Source of the DNA: a virus
IMG/VR virus record: IMGVR_UViG_3300005856_000023
Location: 1 to 64,000 of that record
Length of the DNA: 64,000 nt
Reading direction: 5' to 3' (one strand)
The stretch's first letter is position 1, and the number at the start of each line of letters is the position of its first letter. Under the pieces are notes generated by a model. The model worked only from the letters and a program-made list of their open reading frames with translations, was not told where the DNA came from and ran no database searches. Both the position numbers and the translations under genes were made by a program. Below, piece after piece: positions 8,655 through 63,786 of the stretch.

Positions 8655-10577
8655 TTAGGCTAGCACATGCTTCCAATCAATGTTTCTGCTAGCAGGAACT
8701 TCAAACAATTGTCTCACCTTTTCCTTAAACTTTTCAACTAATAATTCTTGTTTTTGTTGAATAGTTACTTTGTCAGAATTTAGTTTTAGGTAGTATATGT
8801 ATGTCTCTTTTGTTTGCGAGAATCTATATACTCTGGCTATTGCTTGATGCAGATCTACATCTCTAAAGGGTAAGTCTGCATATATAACTATCCTACCTTC
8901 TGTTAAAGTAAAGCCAAATGATAAAGATGAATATGTTGCTATCAGTATTGTTCCTGGCTGTTGCTTGAATATTTGAATTGATTTTTTACGTTCTTTCAAA
9001 GATTGTTCTCCTGTAACAGTTACAATATTCCTAATACCATGTTTCTCAAGAGTTTGTTTTATGGCTTTCAATGTGTATTTGTAGTTCGTGAATATTATTA
9101 TTCTTTCCTGTTTGGAAACTAAATCTTTTATAAGCTTAATATTCTTTTCATATAACTCCATCACCAACTCTATTAATCTTTGTTTGTATATACTACTTAA
9201 CTCTTTAGTGAAACAAATCAATTTACCCATAAATAGTTGTGACATCGTTTTGTTAAATTGTTCAGCTAAAGTATGTTCGTTTCTACTTTGCAGAAAATCA
9301 TAGATTTGTTTGCGAGCGTAAACTAAATCTCTTGTTAATTTAATTTGATTTTGTTCGACGTTTTCCCTAATCATTTTTACATAATCACTAATTTGATTAT
9401 CTGTATCAACTTGTTCTATTTTTGATAGCATATCAATTAGGTTTTGTTTATAAGTGTTGTAGTTTTGATTTACTTGTTGTAGACAACCTGATGACTGATC
9501 TCTGGCTTGCTCAATAATACCATCAATTGTGTATTTATCAACATTATCTACATTTGTTTCTATAACTATTTCATGTTTTGGTGGTAAGGATAGACTGCTA
9601 CTAATTTGACTTCTTGTTACTCTGATCATACTTAAACTAAGTCTATGTTTTATCAAATCTATAGCATGTGTAGCATAAGCTGAATTATAGGCTTTAACGA
9701 AATAAGGGTAAGCATCCATATCAAACAAAGGGTCCAACAATAAAAATGCTCCTGATAGTTCAGCATATCTACCTTTGACTGGAGTTCCAGATAACAATAA
9801 TACATCATTAATGTTGTTAGCAATGACAAATTTGTATAGAGATTGCATTGTCTGTGTATCAGCATATCTTATGACTTGAGCCTCATCTAGGATAAGGAAA
9901 ATTCTCTCAACATTATAGTTCCACGGAACATGTAGTTTTGAAACATTATTAAAGTTTGTTATGATTGCAATATGATTATGGTTTGGTTGATCTAGAGGGA
10001 AAGCACAAACCTGTTCTCTTGGTATGTTGGTTAATTTCTCAAATTCATCTAGCCAATTTAATATAAGTGTTTTGGGACAAACAACAATAACTTTTGTTCC
10101 ATAGGCCAGTGATGTATATAGAGATGTTAGGGTTTTACCTGTACCAACATCAAAAGCCAAATAATAACCTCTTAGTTTGAGGTTATCCTTATATTCACCG
10201 TAATGCAAAACAAATTTATGTTGATGTGGCATTAACTCAACTTTGAAGATTTGTTTCGCTTTATCTAAATGTTTTGGTGTATCTGGTTTATGATCAAACA
10301 ATATATGATACAATACAGTATTCTCAATTAGTTCACGAGCAATTTTTAGTTGATTATTGGATATTAGTGATAGAACAATCTCAACTGTAAAAAAGCGATG
10401 AAATTTGTAGTATGTTTTGCTTCCTATACTTACATCATTGATAACCATTTTTAAAAAATTTTTGTCCTGTTCATTAACATAATCTAGCAAATTCAAATCC
10501 GTTAGATAGAAGTTTTTGCTTTCAATAATTTGCATAAACATAAATCGCTGAGATATTATCGTCAAAACAACAAACAT
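8655..10577 (-). CDS. SNF2-like superfamily 2 helicase/ATPase
   Basis: All SF2 motifs are visible: Walker A GTGKT (about residues 145-149), motif Ia (VVCPKTLILNW), a DEAQ box, SGTPVKG (motif III), IIIFTNY (IV), ATYSSLSFGF with the following TEG (V) and QAIARVYRFSQ (VI), which closely matches the SNF2 QA..R..R.GQ pattern. 640 aa. Such phage enzymes (relatives of T4 UvsW and SNF2 translocases) remodel forks or strip proteins from DNA. The ATG overlaps the end of the upstream gene by 16 nt and has no class 1/2 signal, so it is read as the second gene of that transcript; in-frame ATGs 12 and 14 codons later are possible starts. Confidence 0.9.
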   Translation of the reverse strand: MFVVLTIISQRFMFMQIIESKNFYLTDLNLLDYVNEQDKNFLKMVINDVSIGSKTYYKFHRFFTVEIVLSLISNNQLKIARELIENTVLYHILFDHKPDTPKHLDKAKQIFKVELMPHQHKFVLHYGEYKDNLKLRGYYLAFDVGTGKTLTSLYTSLAYGTKVIVVCPKTLILNWLDEFEKLTNIPREQVCAFPLDQPNHNHIAIITNFNNVSKLHVPWNYNVERIFLILDEAQVIRYADTQTMQSLYKFVIANNINDVLLLSGTPVKGRYAELSGAFLLLDPLFDMDAYPYFVKAYNSAYATHAIDLIKHRLSLSMIRVTRSQISSSLSLPPKHEIVIETNVDNVDKYTIDGIIEQARDQSSGCLQQVNQNYNTYKQNLIDMLSKIEQVDTDNQISDYVKMIRENVEQNQIKLTRDLVYARKQIYDFLQSRNEHTLAEQFNKTMSQLFMGKLICFTKELSSIYKQRLIELVMELYEKNIKLIKDLVSKQERIIIFTNYKYTLKAIKQTLEKHGIRNIVTVTGEQSLKERKKSIQIFKQQPGTILIATYSSLSFGFTLTEGRIVIYADLPFRDVDLHQAIARVYRFSQTKETYIYYLKLNSDKVTIQQKQELLVEKFKEKVRQLFEVPASRNIDWKHVLA

Positions 10578-11050
10578 AAATAATAGGCAAAACTATTTAC
10601 AAAAACTACTTGCGGTATGTATTTATATTCTTGCTCTATAACTATGTTAAGAAATGTACTAGCTATCAAATTATTTTCTACAATTACAGAATGATAACTA
10701 TTAATTTCGAGATTCCTGATTTCCATATCCATAGTAATACGTTTTTTGTAATACATAAGCGGTATTATTAAATTTTGAAGGTAGTTGGTTTTCAGTGTGT
10801 TTGGAAACACTATGGATGGCAATATAGGAATATCTATATTTGGACAAAATTTACTCAACATTATGTAAACGATAAATTTGGAGTAATCAACTTTTTCTAT
10901 TTTGTTGCAATTAGCTAGTAGATCTAGCAGAGTATCTTCAAAATTGTCGCTGTAGCCAACACCATTAAACCACACGTCTATATAGGCTGAATAATAGTGT
11001 ATAAATTTGATAAGTCTATTTATTGTTTCGTAAGTAGATTTAATGATCAT
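10562..11050 (-). CDS. unknown protein (162 aa)
   Basis: Class 1 start (GATCTAAATTT then TCTGTT then ATG). Hydrophobic, Ile/Tyr/Asn-rich and probably helical, ending in a very hydrophobic stretch. It may be a distant relative of the next gene upstream (11076-11543): both have an YIMLSK/YMLLLK segment followed by an acidic IDxxxxD stretch and a similar hydrophobic C-terminus. Its 3' end overlaps the SNF2-like helicase start, so the two are probably co-expressed. Confidence 0.6.
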   Translation of the reverse strand: MIIKSTYETINRLIKFIHYYSAYIDVWFNGVGYSDNFEDTLLDLLANCNKIEKVDYSKFIVYIMLSKFCPNIDIPILPSIVFPNTLKTNYLQNLIIPLMYYKKRITMDMEIRNLEINSYHSVIVENNLIASTFLNIVIEQEYKYIPQVVFVNSFAYYLCLLF

Positions 11051-11075: not shown

Positions 11076-11543
11076 TCATATGAGTAGTGTTATGTAACTC
11101 AATATTGGAGCACCAAAAGCTCTGACATCACTATTTATCAAAGCAACTTTCACAAATAAGTTTGCAAGTATGATATTGTGTATTGGTACTACTGATGAAG
11201 TTGATAATATTAACTTAGAATTTTTGTGTTTGTAATAAGTTATTTTTTTCATTGTGAAAGACAACCTATAAAATATAATGTGATGCAATTTTCTGTTTAT
11301 GCTTTTGTCTATCCATAGCTTTATAGGATCTGTCAAATCAACATTGTCGAAATCAATATCTGTTGTGTAATCTGCTTTCAACAATAACATGTAAGTTATT
11401 ATGTTTTCAAATGGATCAACAATATCTAACAAACTTAACATAACACTACCAAATTCTGGTGTATAGCTAAGTCCGTAATACAAATGAGGATAATGTAGTT
11501 TTGAGAATAATACATCCTGTAACAAAGTCGGACTGGAATACAT
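11076..11543 (-). CDS. unknown protein (155 aa)
   Basis: Complete class 1 signal (TTTGCA, 6 nt, CTAAATTT, 6 nt, ATG). Not recognised; similar in size and pattern to the following 162-aa protein, perhaps an old duplication. Mostly helical with a hydrophobic C-terminal ~35 residues. Confidence 0.6.
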   Translation of the reverse strand: MYSSPTLLQDVLFSKLHYPHLYYGLSYTPEFGSVMLSLLDIVDPFENIITYMLLLKADYTTDIDFDNVDLTDPIKLWIDKSINRKLHHIIFYRLSFTMKKITYYKHKNSKLILSTSSVVPIHNIILANLFVKVALINSDVRAFGAPILSYITLLI

Positions 11544-13310: not shown

Positions 13311-13904
13311 TCATAGAATCAATTCAACATAAGCTTTCTGTGTCTCATAAAGTCTAATTTTACTAAGTTGTATTTTTGCTGGAATTAATCCTATAGTTTT
13401 CATTCTATCAAATATTTTTACAAACCAATTACATAAATTTTCTGCAGTCGGAACAAAATCAACGAATATGAAGCTCTGTTTATGTTCATCGCTAAATTCT
13501 TCATAATATCCATTGAATTTTGAAAATAGAGATTTTTTCTTATCTGTTGATACTAACTCTAGCTTACCATCTATCTCAGTAATGGTGTAATAAACTAAGC
13601 ATTTAGACCAATCTGGTTTGTTTTTTGTTACTCCGGTTATTGAATCAAACAATGGATCATTTATATCCAAGATGAATTTATGATCGATAAATCTTTGTAT
13701 AAAATCGTTTAGATAGTTGAAAAATGTGAAATCTAGCACCATACCGCTTTCATCTAGATTAGATGTAATAAATATTTCCAACATATATTCATGTCCATGT
13801 AGAAATCTACATTTATTTGGTCCCAATGATTTTGGTAAATTTTGTGAATGAACCCTATGACCTGCAACAAAATTAATTTTTTTGGTTATAAGTATTTCAC
13901 TCAT
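13311..13904 (-). CDS. queD: 6-carboxy-tetrahydropterin synthase (QueD/PTPS family)
   Basis: QueD converts dihydroneopterin triphosphate to 6-carboxytetrahydropterin, the second step toward preQ0 and 7-deazaguanines. The zinc ligands H16 (AGHR), H36 and H38 (LHGHEY), the catalytic C32 (KC..LHGH), GMVLDF, DHKFILDI, PTAEN and a late YET are all present. An insertion of about 55 residues separates the DH and PTAEN motifs, making it longer (197 aa) than typical bacterial QueD. The ATG at 13904 follows a slightly altered class 1 box (CTAAAATTT, 5 nt). FolE, the preceding enzyme, is at 49766. This pair suggests deazaguanine DNA modification or host queuosine manipulation; QueE/QueC are not in the window. 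Confidence 0.9.
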   Translation of the reverse strand: MSEILITKKINFVAGHRVHSQNLPKSLGPNKCRFLHGHEYMLEIFITSNLDESGMVLDFTFFNYLNDFIQRFIDHKFILDINDPLFDSITGVTKNKPDWSKCLVYYTITEIDGKLELVSTDKKKSLFSKFNGYYEEFSDEHKQSFIFVDFVPTAENLCNWFVKIFDRMKTIGLIPAKIQLSKIRLYETQKAYVELIL

Positions 13905-13914
13905 ACAAAAAATT

Positions 13915-14625
13915 TTAGATTGCTTGATTTGTTTCAAGTAATGTTGATGCTACTTCTGTAAGCAATATATCTCTTTCTGCCATATAGCTTACTAACTCAA
14001 ATTCATCTTTAAATACATCTTTTATAAAGAGTTTATCAATAGCTTTACCATAAACATAAATAGATGTTAACACATCTCTATATACATCAGCATCAATAGC
14101 ATTTTCCATGCTAATCATTAATTCTATATTCTCTAGCTCATCATTAGTTAGTTCATTCTTGGCTTCATTCACTATTTGAGCAACCCGAAGTTTTATATCA
14201 TCTTCCTTGATGTAACAATACTTTGGTAGCAGATTTTGTTCAATCTTTTCCTGAACAGTTGCTATTATGTTATCGATCAATGTGCTTATATTTTCATACT
14301 CCTTAGCTAACGATACATCTTCAAAGAGCATATACTCCAAAGCCTTACGATAAAATTCTTTCACATCAGTAATATAAGTTTGCTCCTCTTTAATCTCATT
14401 TTTGCTATTGTTTTCTGCTTGTTCTTGTTTTACTACCGATTTTATAACTTTTGCAAAGGATAATAGATTTTCATCTATTGTCGAACTCGCTTCATTTATA
14501 ATTTTCATTTGAATTTCTACTATCTCTTTATCTTTTTGTTCTATGGGTAACGGAACTATTGATGATGATTCATCAACGTTTTCATCGCTGTTTAGAATAA
14601 CCTTAAGTAAATCATCTCTAAGCAT
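13915..14625 (-). CDS. acidic helical unknown protein (236 aa), late class
   Basis: Class 2 start (TTAAGC, then 9 nt, ATG). Glu/Asp/Ile-rich with almost no aromatic residues except a few Tyr; predicted nearly all helical, with coiled-coil-like stretches. This composition resembles scaffolding or chaperone-type proteins, but there is no specific motif. Ends 10 nt before the queD start. Confidence 0.55.
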   Translation of the reverse strand: MLRDDLLKVILNSDENVDESSSIVPLPIEQKDKEIVEIQMKIINEASSTIDENLLSFAKVIKSVVKQEQAENNSKNEIKEEQTYITDVKEFYRKALEYMLFEDVSLAKEYENISTLIDNIIATVQEKIEQNLLPKYCYIKEDDIKLRVAQIVNEAKNELTNDELENIELMISMENAIDADVYRDVLTSIYVYGKAIDKLFIKDVFKDEFELVSYMAERDILLTEVASTLLETNQAI

Positions 14626-26253: not shown

Positions 26254-26469
26254 TTATACTACATTTTCGTCTTCAACAGGAACAAGTATTATATCTGCCA
26301 TAATCGCTTCACAATTATTCTTTTCTTCTTCATCTAACTCAATAATTTCTCCTGGATATATGTAGTTGAGTTTACGAATAGGATTATCTTCTTTTACATC
26401 TAGCATGCTAACCAATATTGGTAGAATTGATCCACTTTTACGATTGATGATATATTTTTGTCTATGCAT
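26254..26469 (-). CDS. unknown small acidic protein (71 aa), late class
   Basis: Class 2 start (TTAGC, 11 nt, ATG). The N-terminus is basic (MHRQKYIINRKSG); the remainder is acidic and ends EDENVV. Small beta-rich domain by pattern. Unknown. Confidence 0.5.
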   Translation of the reverse strand: MHRQKYIINRKSGSILPILVSMLDVKEDNPIRKLNYIYPGEIIELDEEEKNNCEAIMADIILVPVEDENVV

Positions 26470-37867: not shown

Positions 37868-39190
37868 TTAGTCGATATTATTCTCAAATTGCCAAACAAG
37901 ATAGTTAACCGATCCAACCTTCTTTGATTCTGGTGTTACAATAGGGTCCAAGTATCCCAACATATCTGTTACAAGTCTTATTTTGTGACTTAATCTCTTC
38001 ATTGCAAATTTATGAGCATATGTAGCCTTTAACTGTAACATAACTTCTGATATAGGATTATGTATTTTATCCTCTACATATTCAACTTGCATTATCTTAT
38101 ACAAAATGGATAGAGATGTTGAATGCTTTCTGGGCAATTTTCGTGTTCTAATTCTCTCATACAACAAATGCATTAGTTGTCTAACCAATGGATGCAATAA
38201 GAATGTTTTGAATCTTACTGTTTTGCTTTTTAGTGAGCTATACAAACCACAATTCTTTATATAATTGTAGAAGTCATTGCTTGGAACAAATGTAAATAGA
38301 AAGTAATAGGGATCTTTAAACTCCTGTCTAACCAATGGATCAAATATAGCACTTATCTCTCCATATAATAATGTCATTATCTCAAAAGAATGTTTGCCCA
38401 TAAGTCTTTCTAATAACCTACTCCCACCATAGTCCTTGAATGATTTTGCAAATCTTCTCCTATAATTGCTTTCATATGTTACATCTACAATTAATTGTTT
38501 ATTGACTGATGTATCTGTATACACAATAGATGTTTCCGTTTCTTGTATTGTTATGTATTTAACTTTCTTTCCTTTTGTTACAGTAGTTACTTTGTTTGAT
38601 TGATTATTACCTAACTCTTGCATATCAACTTGAAAGCCAGTTTGTTGTAAAACCATATACAACAAATCTAACAAGGATAAATTACTTTCCAATAAACTTT
38701 CATCATTCTTGAGCAAATACAATATCAAAAAGTTCAATACAGGTAATGTTTTATGTTTTGATTCATATAAGATTGGTTTTGTTTCATCTAAAATATTTTT
38801 AAACACTACTTTCCTATACAGATTAGATAATTTTGCATCCATACTCTCTGTTCCAAATCTATCCAAGAACTTATCTGCGATTGAGTAAATAAATACATAT
38901 CGTTGTCCATTAACTATTATGTAGTTTCCAATAAACCTAGGAATGAATGTTTTGTAATTACAAATTGCTCCATCCTTTTTATCCTTCAAACTATATTTGA
39001 TAGTGTAAACAGATATTAATCCGTCTGTTGACATGAGATCTTCTTCCTCAATTTGTAAATCAATTAATTCAGCATCAATCAGATCACAAAACCAAATTAT
39101 GGTATTTTTAACATCTTCTGTAATATTGTTTAATACTTGTTTGCGATATGAAATGGGTTTGCTGTCTATGTTTAGGTTTATGAAATACAT
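37868..39190 (-). CDS. multisubunit RNA polymerase beta, N-terminal half
   Basis: Two beta landmarks identify it: TFIPRFIGNYIIVNGQRYVF at about 82-101 (cf. P.M...GTFIINGAERV) and, at the very end, MLGYLDPIVTPESKKVGSVN (about 410-430; cf. CPIETPEGPNIGLI). Between them lie lobe-like helices and a basic region (YESNYRRRFAKSF, KHSTSLS). It ends just after the TPES motif, exactly where the separate C-half at 21644 takes over, so the split is at a natural domain border. 440 aa from the class 1 ATG at 39190 (a TTG-like start 27 nt upstream is not used). Together the halves rebuild a compact beta subunit. Confidence 0.85.
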   Translation of the reverse strand: MYFINLNIDSKPISYRKQVLNNITEDVKNTIIWFCDLIDAELIDLQIEEEDLMSTDGLISVYTIKYSLKDKKDGAICNYKTFIPRFIGNYIIVNGQRYVFIYSIADKFLDRFGTESMDAKLSNLYRKVVFKNILDETKPILYESKHKTLPVLNFLILYLLKNDESLLESNLSLLDLLYMVLQQTGFQVDMQELGNNQSNKVTTVTKGKKVKYITIQETETSIVYTDTSVNKQLIVDVTYESNYRRRFAKSFKDYGGSRLLERLMGKHSFEIMTLLYGEISAIFDPLVRQEFKDPYYFLFTFVPSNDFYNYIKNCGLYSSLKSKTVRFKTFLLHPLVRQLMHLLYERIRTRKLPRKHSTSLSILYKIMQVEYVEDKIHNPISEVMLQLKATYAHKFAMKRLSHKIRLVTDMLGYLDPIVTPESKKVGSVNYLVWQFENNID

Positions 39191-41091: not shown

Positions 41092-41177
41092 GTGAACTAC
41101 TCTATCTTGTAGAAGATGGAGCTTCCTACTTCACAGGAGCTATACGCTCCCTCCCTATAGAGAATGGAGACTTCTTA
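41092..41177 (+). repeat. IS200/IS605-like end, copy 2 (long form with extra hairpins)
   Basis: Begins GTGAACTACTCTATCTT and ends GGAGACTTCTTA, sharing both flanks with the element at 2098-2143 but with about 40 extra bp containing GGAGCTATACGCTCC, a second perfect small stem. It lies between the divergent 383-aa gene and the tail sheath, just before the latter's class 2 signal, so it could also act as a structured leader or terminator. No transposase gene. Confidence 0.4.
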
Positions 41178-49733: not shown

Positions 49734-49765
49734 TTTTTTTGCTCAACGATGCTAAATTTATCAAA

Positions 49766-50371
49766 ATGAAAGAATTCTTGAGTATAGCAAAACAATTAGT
49801 AGATTTAACAAAAAATGATTCAATTGCAAATCATTTTACTGAATCTGCAGAGAGAGTATCAAAATACTGGACGGAGATCATGCAATTTGCTATTAATAGA
49901 AAAAATTTTGATTCTGATGCAGAATGTATTAAGCATCTACTAACTATCAAAACTTTTGAGGATAATTTTGAAGATGAAGATGTAAGCATGAACAAAAGCA
50001 AAAATTTGCTATTCGTTGGACCTATTAAAGTATATAGTGTATGTGCTCATCATTATGCTCCCATTATAGGTAATGTCTGGTGTGGATACAAGCCACAAAA
50101 CAAAATCATTGGCTTATCAAAATTATCACGTATTGCTAAACTATATGCAAGACAACCCATTGTACAGGAACTATATACTGATGGACTATTTGATTTGCTA
50201 AAGTATTTTACTGAATCGGACAGAATAGTAGTAATAACTTATATGAGACATTTATGTATGGAGTCTAGAGGAATAAACGATACAAACTCCATAACAACAT
50301 ACTACAAACATAATTTAGATGATGCGGAATTCCAAGCATTACTATCTACAATTAAGTTTGAGAAACCATAA
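49766..50371 (+). CDS. folE: GTP cyclohydrolase I (FolE family)
   Basis: Turns GTP into dihydroneopterin triphosphate, first step of folate, biopterin and 7-deazaguanine synthesis. The zinc site is complete: C93 and H96 (VCAHHYAPI) and C164 (RHLCMESRG). IIGLSKLSRIAKLYARQPIVQE is the standard substrate-loop and helix region. 201 aa, normal length for the catalytic core. Class 1 ATG at 49766; a TTG 27 nt upstream contains the signal and is rejected. With QueD (13311) it gives two of the four enzymes to preQ0. Confidence 0.92.
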   Translation: MKEFLSIAKQLVDLTKNDSIANHFTESAERVSKYWTEIMQFAINRKNFDSDAECIKHLLTIKTFEDNFEDEDVSMNKSKNLLFVGPIKVYSVCAHHYAPIIGNVWCGYKPQNKIIGLSKLSRIAKLYARQPIVQELYTDGLFDLLKYFTESDRIVVITYMRHLCMESRGINDTNSITTYYKHNLDDAEFQALLSTIKFEKP

Positions 50372-50401
50372 CTACCTTACAAGTAATCTAAATTTTTTGT
50401 T

Positions 50402-57633: not shown

Positions 57634-57696
57634 AAAGAATTTATGCTTTTGAGATCACAATATATCAAATTACTCAACCACTCTAAATTTTAGAGT

Positions 57697-58746: not shown

Positions 58747-58831
58747 TTTTGCAGACGGGCAGGGTGTTCCACTTTTTTTGTCAAATTACAAGTAGTTAAC
58801 CTACTAACATTAACTAGATTAAGATAAAAAA

Positions 58832-60106: not shown

Positions 60107-60649
60107 CTAGCGTAATTCAATAATTGTCTTTTGTTTGTTGTGCTTATCATAAACTACTTTTAATAGTTTTATGGGTTCAGCTTTCATAGTTATTAGTAAT
60201 TGTTTTAGCATATCGGGATTTATTTTCCAACCTTTAATTTCATTAGATAATATACCTCCAAACTTCAATCCTTCAACAACACCTTCTGAACAAAAGTATC
60301 CACCATTACTAGTAAACACAGGTATCACAAAACCAATAACACCAAGCCAATTATATGGCACATTATTCGTTGCAAGATAGTTATAAAATCTCATAGCATA
60401 ATCATATTCCTGATCACTAACACTTAATTTATATACTTCTACAATAGTATCATCAGAATGATCAAGCAATGTAAAATAATTCCAATATATTCTGCATAAA
60501 CTACCATTTGGATAGACTTCAATAGTTTTGTAGGGATACTCCAATTCCAATATTATACCTGCATGACTAATATCTGATCTTGTCCAAAATTCTATTAGTC
60601 TGGAAAATAGAGATCTACCCTTAAAGAGACCGATGTATATGTCTTGCAT
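60107..60649 (-). CDS. NlpC/P60 (YiiX-like) cysteine hydrolase
   Basis: 180 aa with the circularly permuted papain-like order: His in SDISHAGIILE (H29), then the nucleophile Cys in GGYFCSEGVVEGLKFGG (about C120). PNGSLCRIYW and PYNWLGVIGFVIP fit the family's strands. Family members cut peptide or acyl bonds in cell-wall or lipid substrates. Class 2 start (GAGC, 11 nt, ATG), next to a fibre-type gene, so a virion- or lysis-associated role is likely. Confidence 0.75.
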   Translation of the reverse strand: MQDIYIGLFKGRSLFSRLIEFWTRSDISHAGIILELEYPYKTIEVYPNGSLCRIYWNYFTLLDHSDDTIVEVYKLSVSDQEYDYAMRFYNYLATNNVPYNWLGVIGFVIPVFTSNGGYFCSEGVVEGLKFGGILSNEIKGWKINPDMLKQLLITMKAEPIKLLKVVYDKHNKQKTIIELR

Positions 60650-60739
60650 TTATAGTATACGCTCACAAAATAAAATCTAAACATCACTGATAAGTTATCG
60701 TTAGCTTACATAACTTAAAAGCAATCTAAATTTTTTTCT

Positions 60740-61264
60740 ATGAAATGTTTGTTACAAGACGAGAAATTAACGTTTATATTTAGACACTATTATGTTTCAT
60801 GTTATAATTATAGTTATAGTAATTATCAAGCCAATGGAATATTATCTTTCGCTGCCATGGATTTATCTTTTAAAATTATAAAGGAACAAAAAAGAAAATC
60901 TATTATTTTAAAAAAGAGGAAACCGATCATACATTTATTAAATTACATTGATATACTCAATTTCAATCTCAATAGTAATAAATTTGACATTACCTTTTTC
61001 TCAATAAATAACTACAAAATAAAATTAGTATATAACTTGTATTTATACCGAAGAAGACCCTTTAAGGACTTTGCTTATAAAGATAGCCTAAAAGTTATTG
61101 AACGCGAAAACCTATGTGTCATTAGATTTGAAGATGATTTTGCTAGTAGAGTACAGCCAAAGAATGTAAATTTATCCGCTATGGTAATGCATATACTTGA
61201 GAAGGAAAAGAGTTATGAGATAGATGTAGGTAGTATAATATTTTATTGTGTACTTCTAATGTGA
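60740..61264 (+). CDS. tandem family protein, copy 1 (174 aa)
   Basis: Class 1 start. Conserved blocks shared by all four: MKCLL.D.KLTF, then IIKEQKRKSIILKKRKPI (basic, about 53-70) with HLLNYIDILNF, NLYLYR..PFKDF (about 105-120), a KVIE.ENLCVIRFE strand, KNVNLSAMVMHILEKEKS and the C-terminal hydrophobic SIIFYCVLLM. Basic and alpha/beta; function unknown. Variable parts are residues 15-40 and 75-100. Confidence 0.75.
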   Translation: MKCLLQDEKLTFIFRHYYVSCYNYSYSNYQANGILSFAAMDLSFKIIKEQKRKSIILKKRKPIIHLLNYIDILNFNLNSNKFDITFFSINNYKIKLVYNLYLYRRRPFKDFAYKDSLKVIERENLCVIRFEDDFASRVQPKNVNLSAMVMHILEKEKSYEIDVGSIIFYCVLLM

Positions 61265-61326
61265 TAAACATTACTGATATGTTATCGTTAGCTTACATAA
61301 CTTAAAAACAATCTAAATTTTTTTCT

Positions 61327-61845
61327 ATGAAATGTTTGTTACACGACGAGAAATTAACCTTTGTATTTAAACACTATTATATTTCATATTATAATTGTGG
61401 TTTTAGGAATTATCAAATCAATGGAGTATTATCTTTTGCTATCATGGATTTAGCTTTTAAAATTATAAAGGAGCAAAAAAGAAAATCTATTACTTTAAAA
61501 AAGAGAAAACCAATTATACATTTGTTAAATTATATTGATATACTCAATTTCAATCTCAATAGTAACAAATTTGGCATTGACTTTATCTCAGAAAATAACT
61601 ACAAAACAGAATTAGCACGTAACTTGTATTTATACCGAACAAGACCCTTTAAGGACTTTGCTAAAGATAGCCTAGAAGTTATTGAATACGAAAACTTATG
61701 TGTCATTAGATTTACATATGATTATGCTAGTAGAATACAGCCAAAGAATGTAAATTTAGCTGCTATGGTAATACATATACTTGAGAAGGAAGAGAGTAAG
61801 ATAGATGTAGGTAGTATAATATTTTATTGTGTACTTCTAATGTGA
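61327..61845 (+). CDS. tandem family protein, copy 2 (172 aa)
   Basis: Same architecture and class 1 signal as copy 1. It lacks two residues after PFKDF (AKDSLE instead of AYKDSLK) and one or two near the end. Differences concentrate in residues 15-40 (FKHYYISYYNCGFRNYQING) and 78-100, indicating divergence of a presumed binding surface while the basic core is preserved. Confidence 0.75.
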   Translation: MKCLLHDEKLTFVFKHYYISYYNCGFRNYQINGVLSFAIMDLAFKIIKEQKRKSITLKKRKPIIHLLNYIDILNFNLNSNKFGIDFISENNYKTELARNLYLYRTRPFKDFAKDSLEVIEYENLCVIRFTYDYASRIQPKNVNLAAMVIHILEKEESKIDVGSIIFYCVLLM

Positions 61846-61907
61846 TAAGCATTTCTGATATGTTATCGTTAGCTTACGTAGCTTAAAAACAATCTAAATT
61901 TTTTTCT

Positions 61908-62432
61908 ATGAAATGTTTGTTACACGACGAGAAATTAACCTTTGAATTTAGAAACAATTATGTTTCATGTGATAATTATACTTATAGTAATTATCAAGCC
62001 AATGGAATATTATCTTTTGCTGTCATGGATTTACTTATTAAAATTATAAAGGAACAAAAAAGAAAATCTATTGTTTTAAAAAAGAGGAAACCGATCATAC
62101 ATTTATTAAATTACGTTGATATACTCAATTTCAATCTCAATAGTAACAAAGTTGACATTACCCTTTTCTCAAAAAATAACTACAAAACAAAATTAGTATA
62201 TAACTTGTATTTATACCGAACAAGACCCTTTAAGGACTTTGTTTATAAAGATAGTCTAAAAGTTATTGAACGTGAAAACTTATGCATCATTAGATTTGAA
62301 TATGATTATACTACTATAGTACAGCTAAAGAATGTAAATTTAGCCGCTATGGTAATGCATATACTTGAGAAGAAAAAGAGTCGTGTGATAGATGAAAGTG
62401 GTATAATATTTTATTGTGTATTTCTAATGTGA
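61908..62432 (+). CDS. tandem family protein, copy 3 (174 aa)
   Basis: Same architecture and class 1 signal. Closest to copy 1 in several blocks (YSNYQANGILSFA, KDSLKVIERENLC), but with KKKSRVIDESGIIFYCVFLM at the C-terminus. Open frame with no disruption. Confidence 0.75.
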   Translation: MKCLLHDEKLTFEFRNNYVSCDNYTYSNYQANGILSFAVMDLLIKIIKEQKRKSIVLKKRKPIIHLLNYVDILNFNLNSNKVDITLFSKNNYKTKLVYNLYLYRTRPFKDFVYKDSLKVIERENLCIIRFEYDYTTIVQLKNVNLAAMVMHILEKKKSRVIDESGIIFYCVFLM

Positions 62433-62493
62433 TAAACATCACTGATAAGTTGTCGTTAGCTTACGTAGCTTAAAACAATCTAAATTTTTTTTT

Positions 62494-63012
62494 ATGAAAT
62501 GTTTGTTATACGACTATAAATTAACCTTTACATTTAGAAACGATCATGTTACATTTTGTATTCATGTTTATGGTGATTATCAAGCCAATGAAATATTATC
62601 TTTTGCTGTCATAGATTTATTTATTAAAATTATAAAGCAACAAAAAAGAAAACTTATTATTTTAAAAAAGAGAAAACCGATCTTACATTTGTTAAATTAC
62701 ATTGATATGCTCAATTTCATTAGTAATGAATTTAACATTACCTTTTTCTCAAAAAATAAATACAAAGCAGAATTATTATATAACTTGTATTCATACCGAA
62801 CAAAACCCTTTAAGGACTTTGGTCGTAAAAATGGTCTAAAAGTTATTGAAAACGAAAACTTTTGTGTCATTAGATTTGAATATGATTATGTTAATATAGT
62901 AAAGCCAAAGAATGTAGATTTAGCCGCTATGGTAATGCATATACTTAAGAAGGAAGAGAGTGATGAGATAGATGTAAGTAGTATAATATTTTATTGTGTA
63001 CTTCTAATGTGA
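62494..63012 (+). CDS. tandem family protein, copy 4 (172 aa)
   Basis: Most diverged copy: MKCLLYDYKLTF start, IIKQQKRKLIILKKRKPI core kept, a three-residue deletion near NFISNEFN, and RKNGLKVIENENFC. The hydrophobic end SIIFYCVLLM is identical to copies 1 and 2, so this tail is probably functional. Class 1 signal with T9 before ATG. Confidence 0.75.
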   Translation: MKCLLYDYKLTFTFRNDHVTFCIHVYGDYQANEILSFAVIDLFIKIIKQQKRKLIILKKRKPILHLLNYIDMLNFISNEFNITFFSKNKYKAELLYNLYSYRTKPFKDFGRKNGLKVIENENFCVIRFEYDYVNIVKPKNVDLAAMVMHILKKEESDEIDVSSIIFYCVLLM

Positions 63013-63057: not shown

Positions 63058-63786
63058 ATGATTATAATCCCTTTTAGAAAGAACATTTCCGTTATCAATT
63101 TAATTCCATCACCAAAATATGGTTCTGCAATATTGTTTTATATTATTCCATTAAACAAAGAATTGAGTAGTATAACTGAAAGACAGTACGAAGAAAAAAT
63201 CGTCGATTCGGTTAATGCAAAAATAAGAGAATTCAGGCCAATAAATTTCATCGGAGCAAATATAATCAAGAAACCGATAAGAGATGTGTTCATTGAATTA
63301 GCTGAATTCATGAATAAAGAAGCAGGAACATTTGAACTACCAATTACAATTAAAAACATTATGTTTAAAATGATTAAAAGTGGAAACACATTCACTATAA
63401 TAACAACAGATAAAGATGGTAATGTAAAAGATTTTACTGATCAGATAGTTGTTGACACATCAGTAATTGTCAATAAAATAAATCAGTTGCTAGCAAATCT
63501 TGATAGTGATCAATCAAATAACAATATGTCAGCAAATCAATTGGATACAATTATAAAATTGTTGGAAAGGTTAAACTTAACTATGGAAAAGATAAACAAT
63601 AATCTAGAAAAGATTTTAGCTAATAAGGAAACAATTGGATATGAGATTGCGAAAGAGACATCACCTATTGAACTTGTTACAAATGTAGAGAAAGATAATC
63701 AAAAAGATATTGCTCAAGATGATATTAGTTTATTCCAAGATCAATTAGATTTACAAAACATTAGTGTTAATGATCTACTATCATAA
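63058..63786 (+). CDS. unknown protein with coiled coil (242 aa)
   Basis: Full class 1 signal (TTTACA, 6 nt, CTAAATTT, 6 nt). Residues 1-130 are alpha/beta; about 155-205 form a Leu/Asn-rich heptad helix (LDTIIKLLERLNLTMEKINN), then an acidic tail (QDDISLFQDQLDLQ, ending VNDLLS). The acidic, hydrophobic C-terminus recalls SSB-type tails, and the N-terminal part could be a DNA-binding domain, but no family is recognised. Confidence 0.6.
   Translation: MIIIPFRKNISVINLIPSPKYGSAILFYIIPLNKELSSITERQYEEKIVDSVNAKIREFRPINFIGANIIKKPIRDVFIELAEFMNKEAGTFELPITIKNIMFKMIKSGNTFTIITTDKDGNVKDFTDQIVVDTSVIVNKINQLLANLDSDQSNNNMSANQLDTIIKLLERLNLTMEKINNNLEKILANKETIGYEIAKETSPIELVTNVEKDNQKDIAQDDISLFQDQLDLQNISVNDLLS

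Follow-up and report, generated by a model that had tools for sequence, protein, structure and literature searches.

Four tandem copies of a gene under positive selection in a phage that probably infects Aquificaceae

Why a phage would keep four adjacent copies of one small gene, each behind the same upstream block and each encoding a different version of a basic protein, is the question raised by the locus described here. The window analysed is the first 64 kb (64,000 nucleotides) of a 129-kb IMG/VR virus record with 30% GC, in which tail-sheath-like, tail-tube-like, PolB-like and RNA-polymerase-like phage genes are recognisable by eye.

Layout of the array and its upstream blocks

The plus strand at 60740-63012 carries four intact open reading frames of 174, 172, 174 and 172 aa, head to tail with unit spacings of 587, 581 and 586 bp, which bears out the initial annotation of intact-frame tandem units of about 585 bp. 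Every indel between copies is a multiple of three. The longest exact match shared by any two units is 63 nt, so that short-read assembly should be able to resolve the copies, and an assembly artefact is unlikely. The features of the locus are as follows.

60107-60649, minus strand: left neighbour, 180 aa, PHROG 1128 (moron/host-takeover category), with the look, by eye, of an NlpC/P60- or YiiX-type peptidase
60678-60739, plus strand: upstream region of unit 1, with GTTATCGTTAGCTTACATAACTTA at 60694-60717, then CAA-N6-TAAATTT ending 6 nt before the ATG
60740-61264, plus strand: copy 1, 174 aa
61265-61326, plus strand: upstream region of unit 2, same element and motif, starting at the TAAACAT microhomology directly after the copy 1 stop
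61327-61845, plus strand: copy 2, 172 aa
61846-61907, plus strand: upstream region of unit 3
61908-62432, plus strand: copy 3, 174 aa
62433-62493, plus strand: upstream region of unit 4
62494-63012, plus strand: copy 4, 172 aa, which has diverged most (omega 2.6-3.4 in comparisons with copies 1-3)
63058-63786, plus strand: right neighbour, 242 aa, no function assigned, 93% identical in the sister phage

The encoded proteins (20.5-21.1 kDa, pI 9.1-9.4) share 69-82% identity with the first copy, taken as reference. Their first 12 residues are conserved, as are a basic core (residues 44-78) and the C-terminal IIFYCV(L/F)LM, in agreement with the earlier description of a basic core and a near-identical tail. 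Strong hydrophobicity is confined to the last 10 residues, and neither a membrane segment nor a signal peptide is evident from the sequence. The clustering of changes proposed for residues 15-40 and 75-100 is visible, with 32 of 52 positions variable compared to 43 of 122 elsewhere (Fisher p = 0.0016, a post hoc value because the variable blocks were read off the same data); positions 111-120, 131-150 and 161-170 vary as well. Across the four copies, variable nucleotide columns number 56, 36 and 21 at codon positions 1, 2 and 3.

Each unit opens with the same block of about 60 nt. It holds GTTATCGTTAGCTTACATAACTTA, a 24-nt element present with 0-3 mismatches, together with the motif CAATCTAAATTT, in which TAAATTT stops 6 nt short of the ATG. 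A search of all the phage DNA read, allowing up to 6 mismatches, placed the 24-nt element nowhere but before the four copies and the sister copy. The start motif is much more widespread: RCAA-N6-TAAATTT-N6-ATG lies upstream of 48 of 134 phage genes compared to 16 of 2551 internal ATGs, with exactly 6 nt between TAAATTT and ATG in 41 of the 48, and the window contains 24 occurrences of TCTAAATTT where 4.2 would be expected. The proposal that each copy has its own promoter thus appears reasonable, given a start motif enriched before genes and a block before each unit. At sites such as 60725-60733, 57682-57690 and 50387-50395, leaders would be very short or absent. The layout resembles that of the promoter consensus AACA-N6-TA of the non-virion RNA polymerase encoded by phage AR9 (PMC9209446), and the window's phage has apparent split RNA polymerase subunits, by eye. 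A conserved RNA hairpin in the upstream block was considered and rejected, as the block folds differently in copies 1 and 4 and the sister, and shows no fold in copies 2 and 3.

Relatives of the phage, its probable host and the array protein

Two relatives of the phage, G002 (53.9 kb) and G001 (88 kb), are 91-98% identical to it over most aligned stretches. The sister phage G002 has a single copy of the array gene at the same site and between the same two neighbours, so that copy number differs between related phages, four here and one in G002; G001 is uninformative on this point, as its contig does not cover the array site. In the IMG/VR search the sister contig was the only relative of the array protein. 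No match was found in the GTDB genome collection, by tblastn against 50,697 phage records, or above cut-off in Pfam, PHROGs, NCBIfam and PADLOC, and 64 Aquificaceae genomes gave two weak matches of 31 residues (E = 0.02). A LAGLIDADG assignment (PF14527, WhiA-like) was rejected at 15.2 bits against the curated cut-off of 23.2, and the best PDB match (E = 0.6) is irrelevant. Structure prediction yielded no usable fold, with pLDDT values of 35.6 from five sequences and 35.7 from nine, including possible paralogues. Judging from these searches, the array protein is a new family confined to this phage group. Inspection by eye showed no Aca-like neighbour of the array.

Two independent lines point to Aquificaceae of hot springs as the probable host. 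The sister's large ribonucleotide reductase shares 82-88% identity with genes from Hydrogenobacter, Thermocrinis and other Aquificaceae MAGs, and the 41 nt at 39095-39135 have a 100% match in an Aquificaceae genome (L077, 1044-1084), in the exact interval that separates two CRISPR-array repeats. This perfect spacer also indicates that host immunity acts on the window's phage; no credible spacer match was found inside the array. To our knowledge, neither the phages nor the defences of Aquificaceae have been studied more than scarcely.

Several further observations concern the surrounding genome. An apparent 7-deazaguanine pathway was recognised by eye (queD, folE, DpdA-like, queE and queC; candidate genes at 13311-13937 and 49739-50371 of the window and at 66588-67805, 77704-78465 and 87147-87965 of G000), and the phage DNA may therefore be modified; omega of queD is about 1.3, which is not significant. 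A 40-kb block (G000, 78508-118862) is missing at that site in both relatives (G001 79931-88009 compared), and parts of it lie inverted in G001 beside the position corresponding to window 58332, which indicates a large rearrangement between the phages near the array. Within G000 78512-85756, strong Shine-Dalgarno sites replace the phage start motif and there are duplicated pairs (79780/83461 and 78890/81838); this segment looks like a foreign insertion. Intergenic elements of about 40-60 nt (2083-2121, 41092-41150 and 58752-58790), with several 81-100% copies in Aquificaceae genomes, are possibly the ends of IS200/IS605-type elements; the one at 41092 has no Rfam match. By eye, the sister contig (L009, 12907-13152) carries a TnpB-like fragment that overlaps a thyX-like gene and is absent from the window's phage.

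Positive selection and the origin of the copies

By the NG86 method, dN/dS is 0.93-3.43 between copies and 1.5-2.6 for each copy against the sister, compared to 0.15-0.55 for four neighbouring genes of the same two phages. Codon maximum likelihood (our own implementation of GY94 with F3x4, best of 15 topologies) gave a whole-gene M0 omega of 2.62, with 2dlnL of 19.4 against omega = 1. The site test of M2a against M1a reached 57.9 and assigned about 40% of codons an omega of 7.6, although lists of selected sites are unreliable with only five sequences.

To check that AT-richness was not responsible, sequences were evolved neutrally in simulations that used the spectrum of 575 changes seen at 4-fold sites in other genes of the phage. 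Copies 3 and 4 differ by 5 synonymous changes where 16.4 +/- 3.0 are expected, and none of 300 simulations was as low; the same result (0/300) was obtained for copies 1 and 4 and for copy 4 and the sister. The pair of copies 1 and 2 alone is near neutral (omega 1.16; 112 of 300 simulations), and the simulation agrees with selection mainly in pairs that include copy 4 or the sister. The same codon analysis of 91 other phage genes, run as a scan without site models, gave a median omega of 0.37, and only the gene at 11076-11543 was significantly above 1. Taken together, the array copies change amino acids faster than neutral drift and are under positive selection. The claim of a diversifying family is upheld by a whole-gene omega of 2.6 over a genome background of about 0.37, and the divergence is neither uniform nor unconstrained: the upstream element, like the basic core and tail of the protein, is conserved. 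As a side observation, a 71-aa ORF at 26254-26469 shows 6-8 nonsynonymous and 0 synonymous changes in two comparisons, with an ML 2dlnL of 3.6, short of significance.

As for the origin of the array, the repeated unit begins with TAAACAT directly after each stop (TAAGCAT in unit 3), and in the sister TAAACA stands both upstream and downstream of the single copy. Synonymous distances are 0.05-0.11 between copies and 0.05-0.08 between neighbouring genes of the two phages, close values that would date the duplications to about the time when these phages split. In the best maximum likelihood tree the sister copy groups with copy 2, which would allow the array to predate the split and to have collapsed in the sister; this tree beats the best one with the sister outside by 5.5 lnL, and the second-best tree is just 1.8 lnL behind. 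The difference in copy number could stem from amplification in the window's lineage or from collapse in the sister, and gene conversion would obscure both histories. We tentatively take amplification as its origin.

Possible role of the array and its parallels

We consider that the array most probably encodes a host-interaction protein for counter-defence or host takeover that was amplified locally and is diversifying, a reading to which we give a probability of about 0.5 and with which the host-directed role in defence or takeover suggested by the initial annotation agrees. One ancestral gene with its own promoter would have been amplified in tandem, the first duplication arising by recombination at the short TAAACA(T) repeat that flanks the unit. 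Selection would then keep the copies and drive them apart, and the phage would gain both more protein and several binding variants simultaneously. The fold or a shared activity may rest on the basic core together with the hydrophobic C-terminal strand, while the fast-changing blocks (about residues 13-43, 81-100 and 111-140) may form the contact surface. The host target, a dose effect and this division into core and contact surface are proposals. A whole-gene omega well above 1 is rare in this phage, found in 1 other of 91 genes, which strongly points to direct host conflict at the locus. The selection signal shows conflict, and the partner could be the host or a competing phage; a host defence is the likeliest, because the host CRISPR system targets the phage and known laboratory amplifications of this kind in phages involve anti-defence genes.

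The other readings have to account for the same pattern. Plain tandem duplication followed by relaxed constraint and drift would fit the pair of copies 1 and 2, which alone is compatible with neutrality, and duplicates often relax; however, relaxation takes omega up to 1, whereas 2.6 was measured, the single-copy sister gene exceeds 1 against every copy, and frames, core and tail are all intact, which makes this quite improbable. The array protein might instead be packaged in the virion and ejected with the DNA to shield the entering genome, as a counter-defence acting from the virion, and would then show a selection signal like the one observed. The T4 internal proteins IPI-IPIII, which are small, basic, variable between relatives and linked to anti-restriction, offer the model, although no sequence link to them was found. 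The basic pI and small size, the conserved first 12 residues, the rapid variation and the virion-type genes close by (by eye) suit this idea, as do the apparent 7-deazaguanine genes, which suggest that the phage already defends its DNA. The C-terminus is also conserved, however, and its hydrophobic character sets it apart from the T4 proteins; we regard ejection as unlikely.

Superinfection exclusion or another form of phage-phage competition, with diversification against rival phages, predicts the same positive selection and multiple specificities, and sister phages with 93-97% identical DNA do exist; with no membrane segment or signal peptide evident in the array protein, we give this little credence. 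The arrangement of the variation in blocks could also recall a diversity-generating retroelement, or a hidden overlapping gene fixing synonymous sites. The former was rejected, since no reverse transcriptase was found in the 129-kb record and the changes are not adenine-specific (34 C/T columns), and the units have no conserved antisense or alternative-frame ORF; both are very improbable.

The preferred reading, local amplification of a host-interaction gene, has parallels in known systems. In T4, selection by ToxIN leads to segmental amplification of dmd-tifA that starts at microhomologies of 6-10 bp (PMC9391042), and in T6 SegB drives amplification of anti-defence loci (PMC13096335). Both share with the array a small gene amplified in tandem with its promoter in a T4-type tailed phage, and the T4 junctions resemble the TAAACA(T) at the borders of the array units. 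TifA has a central basic cluster (PMC9391042), like the basic core of the array protein; the PHROG search and the tblastn search of phage records gave no match that would link the array protein to the TifA family. Unlike T6 with its SegB, the array has no recognisable homing endonuclease next to it. The T4 and T6 arrays are laboratory-derived, near-identical and dose-raising, whereas the window's copies share 69-82% identity and are under positive selection. A further likeness, as far as it is summarised in PMC9391042, is the gene accordion of poxvirus K3L (Elde et al. 2012, cited there), in which an anti-host gene is amplified and a beneficial amino-acid change then arises in the copies; that case concerns an animal virus and an unrelated protein, and its extra copies are lost after adaptation, whereas the four divergent copies here stand.

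The array may also have more distant kin in the same phage. Three genes (1651-2088, 10562-11050 and 11076-11543) were chosen by eye for a hydrophobic C-terminus with an LL(M/I/F) end before their omega was known, and all rank among the 11 genes with the highest omega of the 91. The two that adjoin each other are as follows.

10562-11050, minus strand: 162-aa gene, omega about 1, possible distant paralogue
11076-11543, minus strand: 155-aa gene, omega 3.1 (2dlnL 8.5), possible distant paralogue, C-terminal PILSYITLLI; across G000, G001 and G002 its ends are conserved and its middle is variable

When 56 genes of comparable length were compared by global profile alignment, the array and 10562-11050 proved to be reciprocal best matches (z 4.2-4.8), the best match of 11076 is 10562 and that of 69454 is the array; HMM and profile-profile searches for array paralogues gave nothing significant. 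By their common hydrophobic C-terminal end, 11076-11543, 10562-11050, 69454-70053 and 1651-2088 are possible members of a wider effector family. Tentatively, and with more doubt than confidence, the array may be the youngest branch of a dispersed family of small fast-evolving effectors that serves Aquificaceae phages as a standing anti-immunity repertoire. If so, the repertoire would be aimed at host immunity that itself varies, of which CRISPR-Cas and toxin-antitoxin systems are examples.

So far, most cases of phages amplifying genes against defences come from laboratory evolution, where the copies are identical. On the preferred reading, the array would be a natural case at a later stage, in which measurable positive selection has driven the copies apart while a sister phage has a single copy at the same place.
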